Origin: Oscillospiraceae bacterium
GTDB taxonomy: Bacteria; Bacillota; Clostridia; Saccharofermentanales; Saccharofermentanaceae
DNA length: 13,047 nucleotides
NCBI GenBank assembly: GCA_902767145.1
Contig: CACXGG010000001.1
Coordinates: forward strand, 1-13,047
Direction of reading: 5' to 3'
The position numbers and the translations under genes were made by a program. The notes beneath the pieces were generated by a model. It did not search any database and was not told where the DNA came from. It was given only the letters and a program-made list of their open reading frames with translations. Shown here in pieces: positions 4,490-13,047 of the stretch (its first letter is position 1; every line of letters starts with the position of its first letter).

Positions 4490-4518
4490 TTGTTTTTTGA
4501 AAAAAAGGGTGCCACAAT
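4490..4518 (+). promoter_or_regulatory. Weak candidate promoter for the Spo0A-domain gene
   Basis: TTGTTT (4490-4495) and CACAAT (4513-4518) are 17 bp apart and lie in the tail of the preceding terminator, about 32 bases before the ATG at 4550. Both hexamers deviate from consensus. Read-through from the ligA operon is an alternative source of transcript. Confidence 0.3.
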
Positions 4519-4549
4519 CGAACCATCACATAAAAAGGCGGGATCTTTT

Positions 4550-5125
4550 ATGGCACAGAAGTATATAAATATAGAGGAGATGACGGGGATATATATCGTC
4601 TGCAGTGATAAGAACCTTCTTGATAACGTCAACAGGATGTTTAAGAGAAGGGGAATGATAGGAGTGACTGATACTGCCGGAAGGGTCCGCTATATCGTGG
4701 ACGGCAGGCAGAGCAAATGGACCGCCATGAAATCCATCAGCAACTTCCTGAACCTTGCGGGATTTAAGGAGATAAACATGATCGACGGCAAGGCCAACGA
4801 TGCCATCTATAACGAGGTCATAGGAAGGGTCCTGAACAAATACGGGTTCGAGCCTGCCCATATAGGCACAAAGGCCGTATTCATCCTTATAAAGCAGATG
4901 ATCATCAATAATATCGACACCAGGAATATCACCGTCAAGGAGTTCTACAGTATAGTGTGTGACAGGCTCCAGCTCACATACGGCCAGACGGAAAGGGATG
5001 TCAGATATGCCATAAAGAACTCATGTGCCTACGAGAGGGGAGTCAAGAGCATAACCCTGGTCAAGAGGCTGGCTGATGAGGTCAGGCTCATACTTGATCA
5101 GATGGTGGATGCAGGGGAGTTATGA
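4550..5125 (+). CDS. Receiver-less protein with a Spo0A-type DNA-binding domain
   Basis: 191 residues. The start is ATG 4550, with AAGGCGGG seven bases upstream; an upstream TTG in the same frame lies inside the terminator and is not credible. Residues about 86-165 match the Spo0A C-terminal effector domain: PAHIGTKAVFILIKQMIINN followed by KEFYSIVCDRLQLTYGQTERDVRYAIKNS, where QTERDVRYAI corresponds to the Spo0A recognition helix SRVERAIRHAI. The first ~80 residues (GIYIVCSDKNLLDNVNRMFKRRG, then GRVRYIVDGRQ) are too short for a receiver and lack the acidic pocket and phospho-acceptor Asp. A C-terminal helical tail (about 166-191) follows. It is probably a sequence-specific regulator not directly controlled by aspartyl phosphorylation. 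The targets (0A-box-like sites) are not identifiable here. Confidence 0.85.
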   Translation: MAQKYINIEEMTGIYIVCSDKNLLDNVNRMFKRRGMIGVTDTAGRVRYIVDGRQSKWTAMKSISNFLNLAGFKEINMIDGKANDAIYNEVIGRVLNKYGFEPAHIGTKAVFILIKQMIINNIDTRNITVKEFYSIVCDRLQLTYGQTERDVRYAIKNSCAYERGVKSITLVKRLADEVRLILDQMVDAGEL

Positions 5126-9829: not shown

Positions 9830-10189
9830 ATGAAGAAGTATATTTCGGAATATATAAGAGAGATAGAACTTTATATGGCTCATGAGATGGAGAAGGATGA
9901 TCTTTCCGGGATGGATGAGAAGATCTCCGAGTTCGAGACTAAGATCTCCTACTTCCAGCATGAGAGGCTCATCCACCTGATCGTAACGGTCCTTTTCGCA
10001 ATACTTGAGATCATGGCCGTCTTTATGATCATGGTTGCCCCTTCCGCACCGGCTGTCCTTTTGTGCATTATGTTCCTCGTTTTGCTGGTTCCCTATGTAA
10101 TGCATTATTACTTTCTCGAGAACAGCGTCCAGAAGATGTATAAGATGAGGGATAAGATGAAGGAAATAAGACGCTCTTTTAATAAATAA
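9830..10189 (+). CDS. Small two-helix membrane protein, function unknown
   Basis: A 119-residue protein without a recognised family. A charged, helical N-terminus of about 45 residues (ISEYIREIELYMAHEMEKDDLSGMDEKISEFETKISYF) is followed by two membrane helices (about 45-66 and 70-93) joined by a very short turn. A basic C-terminal helix (MYKMRDKMKEIRRSFNK) ends it. Both tails would be on the same side, probably cytoplasmic given the basic C-terminus. The start is ATG 9830, four bases after the radical SAM stop; the ribosome site is weak (GGGTGA), which suggests translational coupling. Co-transcription is the only hint about its role. Confidence 0.8.
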   Translation: MKKYISEYIREIELYMAHEMEKDDLSGMDEKISEFETKISYFQHERLIHLIVTVLFAILEIMAVFMIMVAPSAPAVLLCIMFLVLLVPYVMHYYFLENSVQKMYKMRDKMKEIRRSFNK

Positions 10190-10308: not shown

Positions 10309-10336
10309 TTGTAACTTGTTTGTCACATGATATTAT
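10309..10336 (+). promoter_or_regulatory. Promoter of the large non-coding RNA
   Basis: TTGTAA (10309-10314), 16-bp spacer, TATTAT (10331-10336) preceded by TGA, an extended -10. The predicted start (about 10342-10344) coincides with the first base of the RNA's closing helix, which supports both calls. The AT-rich 10218-10308 stretch before it holds only small inverted repeats. Confidence 0.78.
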
Positions 10337-10341
10337 AGAAG

Positions 10342-10971
10342 TAGCTCCAGGGAATGCTGAAAGCAAGAGCATTCAGACACGGAGGCCGCCTCGATCGGAC
10401 GAGCGGAGTGCAGGGTAGAACCAAAGGTGTTGAAAGGGTCTTAGGATCTGACAGTTGACCGGAGGCGAAGCCGAAGAAACGAACCGGAAGCTTGGTGCCT
10501 GGCACATGTAGTGAGGGGATACGGAACAGAAGCTTTGGGAAGATGGAGGAGATACGAGCACAGCGATTGACGGAGCGGTACCGCCGCTTACAAGTCGCAG
10601 TTGTAACAGATTAGTTGATTCGGATTATCGATCCGCGAGCGGATGAGATGTCATCGCCGACAGGTAGATTCCGAGGCGCGACGGATGTTACATCGGTTCG
10701 TGCAAACCGAGTAGCCGGTATTGCTTACGACAGCAGGTCTTGATATTTCGGAAGCCTGACGGTAAGCGGAGAAGCAGATTTGAATATGCGGTGAATGGGA
10801 GACATGAGTTGCACGGTGTGAGGTTTGAGTCGCAGCAGTCAAGTGGTCGTTGCGATCTCGGTAAGAGCTCGTGGAGTTGGCGAAAGGGTGCCGGTGGTTT
10901 GAGTGATCGTGGTGAGGTTCGCTGGAGCTATTTAATTAAAGGAGGTTGTCTCATTGGACAGCCTCCTTTTT
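10342..10971 (+). ncRNA. Large structured non-coding RNA, about 590 nt plus terminator
   Basis: No credible reading frame exists over about 630 bases, yet the region has its own promoter and terminator and is strongly structured. The ends pair perfectly: TAGCTCCAG (10342-10350) with CTGGAGCTA (10922-10930), closing one domain. Visible internal helices include GAATGCT/AGCATTC (10352-10374), CCG-CTCG/CGAG-CGG with one bulge (10386-10404), AGCGG/CCGCT (10574-10588), TTACAA/TTGTAA (10588-10606), CGGAT/ATCCG (10621-10635), CGGTT/AACCG (10694-10709), TGCT/AGCA (10722-10735) and an 8-pair helix GTCGCAGC/GTTGCGAT with two wobbles (10829-10856). It lacks the hallmarks I know for RNase P RNA, tmRNA, 6S, SRP RNA or group I/II introns. 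Length and closed architecture resemble ROOL, OLE or GOLLD-class ornate RNAs, with ROOL my first guess; the class is not assignable by eye. Confidence 0.8.
10938..10971. terminator. Strong terminator of the RNA, also usable by hpt
   Basis: Stem of 13 pairs: AAAGGAGGTTGTC (10938-10950) with GACAGCCTCCTTT (10957-10969), one wobble, loop TCATTG, T-run to 10971. On the minus strand the stem is followed by a T/A-rich tail, so it can also end the convergent hpt transcript, whose stop is at 10979. Confidence 0.9.
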
Positions 10972-10978
10972 GTATGTC

Positions 10979-11527
10979 TTATTCTTTCTTCTTGAGTTCA
11001 GCGATATAGGGGATATTCCTTCCTATCTCCTTGGCATCCAGCCCGTATCCTATGAGCCAGCTGTCATTGATCTCGAACCCGTAATACTTGACCGGGATGG
11101 TGGTCAGGAGCCTGTTGGGATTCAGCAGCATGGTGCAGAGGTTTATATCCTTCGGCTGCTTTGACTCAAGGTTTGATATGAGATAGGCAGTGGTAAGGCC
11201 TGTCCTTATGACATCCTCCACGATGAGCACATGCTTGTCCGTGATATCGATATCTATATCCTTGGTGATACGTACTACACCTGTCTTGGATGTGGTGTCG
11301 GGGATGTTTCCGAATCCGATCATATCGATCTTGATGGGAAGGTCTATGGCCCTGGTGAGATCTGAGAAGAAATAGAGGGAACCCTTGATGACTCCGATGA
11401 CGATGAGTTCCTCACCCTTATAATCCTCAGTGATCTGCTTTCCTAATTCCAATACCCTGTTCCTGATGACTGTCTCATCATAGACAGTCCTGTTAATATC
11501 GATCGAATCTCCAAGGATAAGTGACAT
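10979..11527 (-). CDS. hpt: Divergent hypoxanthine phosphoribosyltransferase-like protein
   Basis: 182 residues, type I PRTase of the HPRT family, which normally makes IMP/GMP from hypoxanthine/guanine and PRPP. Family features present: VIGVIKGSLYFFSDL (K49), GVVRITKDID after the flexible loop, the metal-binding E104-D105 in VLIVEDV, K147 in VKYYGFEI, and the purine/pyrophosphate end GYGLDAKEIGRNIPYI (D164, R170). Odd features: the catalytic-loop Asp normally in EDxxDTG is Arg108 (EDVIRTG, AGG codon), and the flexible-loop Ser-Tyr dipeptide aligns with Asn74-Ile75. Length is normal, so this is a divergent member and not a fragment. ATG 11527 has GGAGG six bases upstream; ATG 11530 is possible. 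It follows the kinase/nuclease gene by two bases. Confidence 0.85.
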   Translation of the reverse strand: MSLILGDSIDINRTVYDETVIRNRVLELGKQITEDYKGEELIVIGVIKGSLYFFSDLTRAIDLPIKIDMIGFGNIPDTTSKTGVVRITKDIDIDITDKHVLIVEDVIRTGLTTAYLISNLESKQPKDINLCTMLLNPNRLLTTIPVKYYGFEINDSWLIGYGLDAKEIGRNIPYIAELKKKE

Positions 11528-11529
11528 CA

Positions 11530-12468
11530 TCAACCTCCGAACTGCTTAAGCCTTTCCACCAGATCGTGGAAATCCTTCTTGTAGACTATCTTGACAGTGG
11601 TGCCCGGATAGAGTTCCATTACCATGCGGGCCTTCTTGTTCTTCTTGGTGACATATTTCTGGTCCATAGTGGTGAGCTCCAGATAGATATTGAACTTGGG
11701 GAGGTAGAAGTCGGGAGAAAAAGCCATCTTGATATTTCCCTCTGCATCCCACTCGATGGGGAAGGTCTTGGGCTCATACATCCATTCGATGCCGTACATA
11801 TCAAGTATCCTGGCAAACTCCTCCTCCGTGGGGTTCTTGAACACCGGAGTCTCTGACTGGTGGTCTATGGAATCGTTGCTGTCTGTTTCCTTTGTTATCA
11901 TTATGCGGCGGTCGTGCTTTTCGCACAGTGAGAGGATGGAAGACGCAGCCTCCTCCACGGAGATCCTGTCTGTATTTATGCTCAGGTCATAAAGCTCAGG
12001 GGAGTTCAGGTCCACTTCAAAGAGGTTGCTTACGAATCTCTTATGCTTCCTGTCTCCGATGGCGATGGTGGACAGGGCGTCCTCCATGCTTATATTGAAC
12101 TGTCTTGAGATACGTGCCGCCCTGGTGTCCTCGTCGGCATATACCCTTACGCTCACTGTATCTGGATCGTCCTTCAGGATAACGCAGCCCCCCAGGCCTT
12201 TTATGATGACATTATCGTTGTTCTCGGCGATCTCCTTTATCTTGGAGACAAGGATATCCTTATATGTGATCTTACTGCCGGGTACCGGTGTCAGGAAGAA
12301 CTTGGCACTCTCGTTCAGCTTCTCTATGGTCTCTTCAGGCTGGTCGTCAAAAAAATGCTCCAGGGCATGTTCTCTGGATATGATCTCACAGCCCAGTTTC
12401 TCGCTGAGATACGAAGCCAGTTCGTCGCCTAGACTGCCGCTCTGCCTGGATATAGTGATAACTGCCAT
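11530..12468 (-). CDS. Cytidylate-kinase-like domain fused to PD-(D/E)XK-like domain
   Basis: 312 residues in two parts. Residues 1-185 match the cytidylate-kinase-like family: VITISRQSGSLGDELASYLSEKLGCEIISRE in place of a classical P-loop, IIKGLGGCVIL (88-98), VRVYADEDTRAARI (107-120) and DLSINTDRISVEEA (161-174). A linker (186-212) leads to a domain of about 100 residues: EEEFARILDMYGIEWMYEP (216-233), FSPDFYLPKFNIYLELTT (250-267), VTKKNKKARMV and VKIVYKKDF. PD252-253, E264 and K275/K276 are placed as in PD-(D/E)XK nucleases, with Thr at the usual Lys position of ExK. The ribosome site is GGGGG six bases upstream. It is first in an operon with the HPRT-like gene. Substrate and nuclease activity are unproven. 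Confidence 0.85.
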   Translation of the reverse strand: MAVITISRQSGSLGDELASYLSEKLGCEIISREHALEHFFDDQPEETIEKLNESAKFFLTPVPGSKITYKDILVSKIKEIAENNDNVIIKGLGGCVILKDDPDTVSVRVYADEDTRAARISRQFNISMEDALSTIAIGDRKHKRFVSNLFEVDLNSPELYDLSINTDRISVEEAASSILSLCEKHDRRIMITKETDSNDSIDHQSETPVFKNPTEEEFARILDMYGIEWMYEPKTFPIEWDAEGNIKMAFSPDFYLPKFNIYLELTTMDQKYVTKKNKKARMVMELYPGTTVKIVYKKDFHDLVERLKQFGG

Positions 12469-12982: not shown

Positions 12983-13047
12983 GCCGACTTAGCTCAGTTG
13001 GTAGAGCAGCTGATTTGTAATCAGCAGGTCGCGAGTTCGAGTCTCGC
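12983..13047 (+). tRNA. tRNA-Thr (anticodon UGU), 3' end outside window
   Basis: Cloverleaf elements: acceptor 5' arm GCCGACT (12983-12989), D stem GCTC/GAGC, anticodon stem GCTGA/TCAGC with loop TTTGTAA giving anticodon TGT, variable AGGTC, T stem GCGAG/CTCGC with loop TTCGAGT. The window ends exactly after the T stem; the acceptor 3' arm is missing only because of the cut. It decodes ACA and possibly other ACN codons. Confidence 0.95.

Follow-up and report, generated by a model that had tools for sequence, protein, structure and literature searches.

ROOL and raiA, two classes of large noncoding RNA in bacteria, were reportedly named in a 2017 survey. ROOL has a closed consensus structure, assembles into an octameric RNA cage and often lies near tRNA islands; OLE works with the partner proteins OapA, OapB and OapC. 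ROOL and GOLLD are described as phage- and prophage-encoded (PMC12286853, in excerpt), and OLE, at about 600 nt, is presented as a large-RNA class of its own from Gram-positive anaerobes (PMC9723947, in excerpt). In C. difficile, raiA/ModT measures 215–260 nt and has a sigA promoter (excerpt of PMC11706538), while the smtA motif, or Soda Lake RNA, is a recently reported large orphan RNA of more than 350 nt that is restricted to one taxon (excerpt of PMC11109978).

The RNA that we analyze lies in what we call the window, the whole 13,047-nucleotide stretch of DNA under study, and it recalls each of these classes in some respects. Like ROOL as excerpted from PMC12286853, it is about 600 nt long, ornate and found in rumen bacteria, and it too has a closed structure; unlike ROOL, it has no Rfam match, sits on the chromosome beside hpt, and occurs across a taxonomic order but not in the viral contigs scanned. 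With OLE it shares a size of about 600 nt, a Gram-positive anaerobic host and the standing of a large class of its own, but again there is no Rfam match, and its neighbors according to Pfam are a radical SAM protein, a 119-aa protein and a phosphoribosyltransferase. The resemblance to raiA/ModT, as far as the excerpt of PMC11706538 describes it, extends to a clostridial host, a free-standing gene, a sigma-A promoter, a terminator of its own and, for the short members, a similar length, whereas the present RNAs do not match RF03072, reach 624 nt and occupy a different genomic place. The smtA motif is likewise large, orphan and taxon-restricted, but the excerpt of PMC11109978 places it in Thioalkalivibrio only and at an unrelated position, a distinction that is drawn by description and not by sequence. 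What is new about our RNA is its class; in broad type it is one of the orphan large RNAs. As judged from its sequence and that of its relatives, the locus is probably an independent gene whose product is a large, structured, trans-acting noncoding RNA of a class that is not in Rfam 15.

Architecture of the RNA gene

The gene and its immediate surroundings consist of the following elements.

10309..10336, + strand: sigma-70/A-like promoter, TTGTAA-16-TATTAT with extended −10 TG (promoter scan; position conserved among homologues)
10342..10971, + strand: structured RNA gene, predicted transcript of about 590 nt plus terminator (fold, BLAST, covariance models)
10342..10355, + strand: 5′ strand of the end helix P1 (9 pairs, a G.G mismatch, 4 pairs), partner 10917–10930
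10917..10930, + strand: 3′ strand of P1, partner 10342–10355
10938..10969, + strand: intrinsic terminator hairpin of 14 pairs, then a T run; stems of homologues differ in sequence
10979..11533, − strand: hpt, phosphoribosyltransferase, convergent neighbor (Pfam, neighborhood survey)

The extended −10 promoter that the original prediction had placed ahead of the RNA is present: its hexamers score 9 of 12, TG precedes the second of them, and the predicted transcription start of the window RNA is set from it. Six promoter-like sites this good were found in a scan of 1.9 kb, against 2.8 expected, so that a single promoter is weak evidence in itself. Across 74 copies from the genus, the mean upstream promoter score is 8.7 of 12, as compared with 6.5 for shuffled upstream stretches, and the means in groups outside the genus run from 9.3 to 11.7 of 12.

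As had been proposed, the first nine bases of the predicted transcript (10342–10350) pair perfectly with 10922–10930; past one G.G mismatch the helix extends through the pairing of 10352–10355 with 10917–10920, and the minimum-energy fold of the window RNA is closed by this helix. The fold has a z-score of −2.96, with none of 20 shuffles equally stable. The expected terminator also exists, with 14 pairs in its stem and not the 13 originally counted. The region had been said to contain no plausible gene, and this is upheld by the 71 full-length homologues, in which the longest stop-to-stop run has a median of 97 codons versus 95 after shuffling; we rejected a protein-coding reading, as no frame is conserved among them. 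Promoter, end helix and terminator, each taken singly, could be due to chance; comparison among homologues is the decisive test.

The surrounding genes show some features of their own. The 119-aa protein (9830–10189, + strand) has no Pfam match. In many members of the genus its gene is retained together with the radical SAM gene, upstream of the RNA as in the window. Beyond hpt, a cytidylate kinase-like protein (11530–12468, − strand) has no Pfam match over its last 145 residues, and further upstream a protein encoded at 4490–5125 on the + strand matches the C-terminal domain of Spo0A below threshold (23.1 bits, where 25 is required).

Distribution of the RNA

A BLAST search of 148 genomes at the DNA level gave matches in 75, 74 of them among the 85 that represent the window's genus, which we infer to be Saccharofermentans. 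The remaining match, in genome G120, covers the terminator part alone, the genuine copy of that genome (locus L195) lying elsewhere; the window's own genome has one copy. From 77 matched loci we excised 71 full RNAs of 398–624 nt with both ends; six loci broken by contig ends, two duplicates and L081 were left out of this full-length set. Homologues in the genus have a promoter-like stretch in front and commonly a terminator behind, with a stem of differing sequence. R1, a covariance model of the 154-nt RNA core built from the genus, detects the core in 78 of the 85 genus genomes, with two matches on separate contigs in G072. It finds none in the other seven (G006, G010, G022, G033, G052, G070 and G080); as the copies in G013 and G021 are strongly diverged (83 and 68 bits with R1), these seven genomes may carry diverged copies rather than lack the RNA.

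Outside the genus, weak R1 matches (26.7–30.6 bits) come from a sister genus, in ten genomes, and from another genus, in one, at loci that have the same 5′ end, core words and 3′ end, with hpt behind; class-wide, R1 matches eight of 391 genomes, all in the genus. Of 188 genomes of the order, 53, spread over 18 of 30 genera, contain a pattern consisting of the 3′ end followed by T, whereas two contain the reversed pattern. Among the 17 loci L186–L202, 15 have the 5′ partner 269–439 nt upstream; L190 lies inside a coding stretch, and L194 has no 5′ partner. In the rest of the order, at least 44 of 103 genomes carry homologues of 245–624 nt that share the end helix and have a sigma-A-like promoter, as do two further families of the class, although the presence of P1 outside the genus is partly by construction, because these homologues were mostly collected by their end motif. 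Ends, promoter and core words alike recur in sister genera, in other families of the order and in the two families beyond it. Altogether 52 RNA copies were read from other groups, three of which are of the genus and two of which repeat one genome.

The RNA also extends beyond the order, as genome G199, of another family in the class, carries a copy. R3, which models the 5′ part on the basis of 17 short members, none of them from the window's genus, matches the window RNA at 10343–10444 (31 bits, E 2e-5). It matched five of 291 genomes in a sample of the class, including two of a further family (f10) with matching ends; its sensitivity is low, as it missed at least six other listed genus genomes of that sample, four of which were found by R1. 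In a sample of the phylum it matched one of 289, namely the window's own genome. The exact 5′ word was found class-wide in 20 of 391 genomes, with the 3′ partner present in six. By sequence, then, the RNA class is known here from one order, which we take to be Saccharofermentanales, and two families beside it. Two neighboring copies, each with a promoter, occur in three genomes (L193 in G093, L242 in G127, L228 in G096); those in G093 and G127 are complete, and the second copy in G096 runs off the contig. Across the order the RNA is mostly single-copy and chromosomal, and its position and phylogeny point to vertical inheritance.

Conserved helices and covariation

Within the closing helix, the conserved elements of the window RNA are as follows.

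10387..10410, + strand: hairpin P3, after the invariant CCGCC; equivalent to order-wide helix 3, covarying
10464..10472, + strand: GGCGAAGCC hairpin, in an insertion domain common to most genus members
10555..10559, + strand: 5′ strand of P4, partner 10867–10871; genus and order-wide alignments
10867..10871, + strand: 3′ strand of P4, partner 10555–10559
10563..10598, + strand: hairpin P5/P5b, with the best covariation of the whole RNA
10600..10607, + strand: 5′ strand of a long-range helix, partner 10849–10856
10633..10664, + strand: hairpin around GAGATGTC, covarying
10688..10717, + strand: conserved segment with GTGCAAACCGAGTAGCCG at its end; supplies the 5′ strands of helices whose partners lie at 10789–10821

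Of the 52 copies read from other groups, only 19 short ones were aligned order-wide, 17 in alignment A3 and 18 in A4. In the structure derived from A4, P1 closes the RNA, P2 pairs nACC with GGGU, hairpin P3 follows CCGCC, P4 pairs GCGAA with UUCGC, and hairpin P5 carries P5b. The GGCGAAGCC hairpin receives no support from covariation because there is no variation at that place.

A search for homologues beside hpt followed by a test of covariation had been suggested along with the original prediction, and the outcome is positive. Across groups, 19 of 38 pairs covary and 72 cells change on both sides, as compared with 13.1 pairs and 25 cells in shuffled alignments; none of 500 shuffles is as high, the structure slid along the alignment gives 11–13 pairs, and standard pairs fill 88.4% of cells against 79.2% when shuffled and 27–44% when slid. 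Within the genus (alignment A2, 26 members), the figures are 33 of 94 pairs and 151 cells against 19.1 and 43, again with none of 500 shuffles as high, 9–14 pairs for the slid structure, and 96.2% standard-pair cells against 90.6% shuffled and 31–41% slid; these comparisons favor both counted structures, which come from the very alignments on which they are scored; the genus structure had, in addition, been filtered for well-paired positions. For the RNA core alone, RNAalifold gives 26 pairs, 16 of them with compensatory changes.

The 71 genus sequences were thinned to 63 for a test against a tree-based null and to 26 for A1 and A2. Only three pairs are significant in the tree-based test, all of them standard and all within these helices. 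When column pairs are ranked by covariation, 40% of the top 20 form a standard pair in 90% or more of the sequences, versus 10% in the background; this holds for just 7.5% of the top 400, and beyond roughly the top 20 there is no enrichment over background.

P1 itself is near-invariant, and its changes, where there are any, affect both strands. In its third pair U-A replaces C-G in 10 of 121 copies, and in its eighth A-U replaces G-C in 40 of 121; the outermost pair (A-U, G-C or C-G, 10343–10929) is standard in only 59 of 121 copies, the inner seven being kept. At locus L263, from family f10, U-A replaces C-G at a further P1 pair, which is a compensatory change. Fold, homologues and covariation together bear out the view that this region encodes a large structured RNA which closes on itself and comes with a promoter and a terminator of its own.

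Searches for known RNA classes

The Rfam library includes the ROOL, OLE and GOLLD families; the positive controls for the searches that follow come from other families. At gathering thresholds, Rfam 15 gave a single match in the window, a tRNA at 12983–13047, and nothing at the RNA. With E up to 10 no ROOL, OLE, GOLLD or other large-RNA model matched in the window, nor did any large-RNA model with E up to 1 or 2 at 50 homologue loci (among them L194, with its 3′ end only). Identity with ROOL, OLE, GOLLD or raiA is therefore not supported; ROOL, initially the first guess, gains nothing from these searches, and the alternative offered at the time, a new class, fares better. As a control, the same tool detected the class A RNase P RNA of the same genome (282 bits) and tRNAs. 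The tRNA gene in the window, on the + strand 2 kb from the RNA, is cut by the window end.

Some sub-threshold matches were set aside. STnc390, over the terminator (17.3 bits, gathering threshold 50), and SNORD67 (16.3 bits, threshold 35) are taken as chance matches at the RNA, and that of Phe_leader in L261 (29.7 bits, threshold 55, E 0.067), which spans the 3′ end and the terminator, is read as a resemblance between terminators; Clostridiales-1 (L028), Magnesium-II (L241), and SpF03 and mir-9256 (L243) matched off the RNA. The reported lack of RNase P RNA, tmRNA and intron hallmarks agrees with the Rfam results, as none of these matches at the RNA. The RNase P RNA of the genome sits elsewhere (G000:C77), and we rejected tmRNA, a class marked by tRNA-like ends and a tag frame, for want of any Rfam tmRNA match at this position. 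A search of the whole genome (G000, 78% complete) for its tmRNA gene did not find it: of three weak Rfam matches, two overlap or adjoin tRNA genes.

A search for raiA matched none of 25 genomes, the control genomes likewise giving no match. Viral contigs contained no copy of an exact pattern that fits 59 of the 71 genus members; a pattern of promoter plus 5′ end matched twice, both times without the 3′ partner, which leaves no real copy. With these two scans and the chromosomal neighbors in mind, we rejected a phage or prophage origin. We found no description of this RNA class in the openly licensed papers searched.

Possible functions and alternative explanations

The stand-alone gene that we regard as probable is suggested by an adjacent promoter, closure by P1, a nested P1-P2-(P3)-P4-(P5) arrangement with compensatory changes, and a terminator. 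The main sigma factor would transcribe the RNA constitutively, and the RNA would fold during transcription into one closed, multi-branched domain. It would then act in trans, probably with proteins, as the core of a ribonucleoprotein or as a regulator of the OLE or raiA/ModT type; this last step, made by analogy, is the weakest of the explanation. Action in trans is favored by the RNA having its own promoter and by its occurrence in 37 entries in which no convergent hpt was detected over at least 500 nt of downstream sequence.

The relation to hpt deserves particular attention. Among 123 entries, two of which repeat one genome, 78 have hpt in convergent orientation no more than 500 nt downstream; they come from families f1, f2, f3 and f4 as well as from G199 outside the order. 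This could mean a functional link and would count against the explanation that we favor. On this basis the RNA could be seen as tied to hpt, which it would control or insulate as an antisense element or as a 3′ region common to both; we consider this distinctly unlikely, because the RNA sits behind hpt and not ahead of it, and because the RNA persists without hpt. Convergent hpt goes undetected in 45 entries: the 37 already mentioned are well flanked, many retaining the same upstream genes, and the other eight have under 500 nt of downstream sequence. Furthermore, 245–624 nt, paired ends and a strong promoter would exceed the needs of such a role. In our reading, then, the RNA is not a control element of its neighbor hpt. 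Rather less improbable, though still unlikely, is a homo-oligomer made of RNA only, a cage or a dimer, that works as ROOL or OLE does without being related to them: a size in the ROOL/OLE range, an end helix that closes the molecule, numerous conserved words in its loops, several short members with GNRA-type loops and the lack of any partner protein gene linked by position would all suit it, but no intermolecular contact is visible in the sequence data, and the short members do without much of the size.

A strongly diverged member of ROOL, OLE, GOLLD or raiA/ModT, past recognition by the Rfam models, might account for the ROOL- or OLE-like size and closed form, and the short members, at 245–291 nt, are near the 215–260 nt given for raiA/ModT in the excerpt of PMC11706538. 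We regard this as very unlikely, given that neither the window nor the 50 homologue loci produced a match where the RNase P RNA and tRNA controls were detected; ROOL and GOLLD, moreover, are phage-encoded according to the excerpt of PMC12286853, while here the neighbors are chromosomal and the viral scans empty. To the idea of a ribozyme, or of some other RNA that is catalytic or mobile, we give the least weight of all: the complex nested core and its invariant unpaired words might fit such a function, but no ribozyme or intron in Rfam matches, and the usual single copy per genome at a fixed chromosomal place argues against mobility.

The closing helix as a possible terminator

For the self-closed RNA as we understand it, P1 might double as the transcription terminator, a suggestion that we make tentatively and think more doubtful than not. 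Release would take place only once the first bases find the last, 245–345 nt later, which would amount to a built-in folding checkpoint. In 15 of 15 testable copies of family f3 and in five of six of f2, P1 is immediately followed by a T run, and the next 90 nt contain no other hairpin terminator; the T run in these families is partly selected, as the search pattern required TTTT within 30 nt, but the absence of another hairpin is not. Among 74 3′ ends from the window's genus, 45 have a separate hairpin only, seven have both, four have the T run only, and 18 have neither. In this genus, a separate terminator hairpin has mostly taken the place of the T run after P1.

Significance

Few large structured bacterial RNAs without assigned function are on record, and OLE, ROOL, GOLLD and raiA/ModT, once studied, each opened a new question about the roles of RNA in cells. 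The RNA is present in the apparently cultured isolates YAD3003, YRB3002, AB4001 and KHP2 of the genus. Related bacteria carry compact (245–291 nt) and enlarged (up to 624 nt) forms of it, whose ends are defined and which have a promoter and covarying helices, so that the minimal core of the class can be derived by comparison and put to the test. If P1 does act as a terminator, it would offer a simple, testable case of transcript release that depends on folding.
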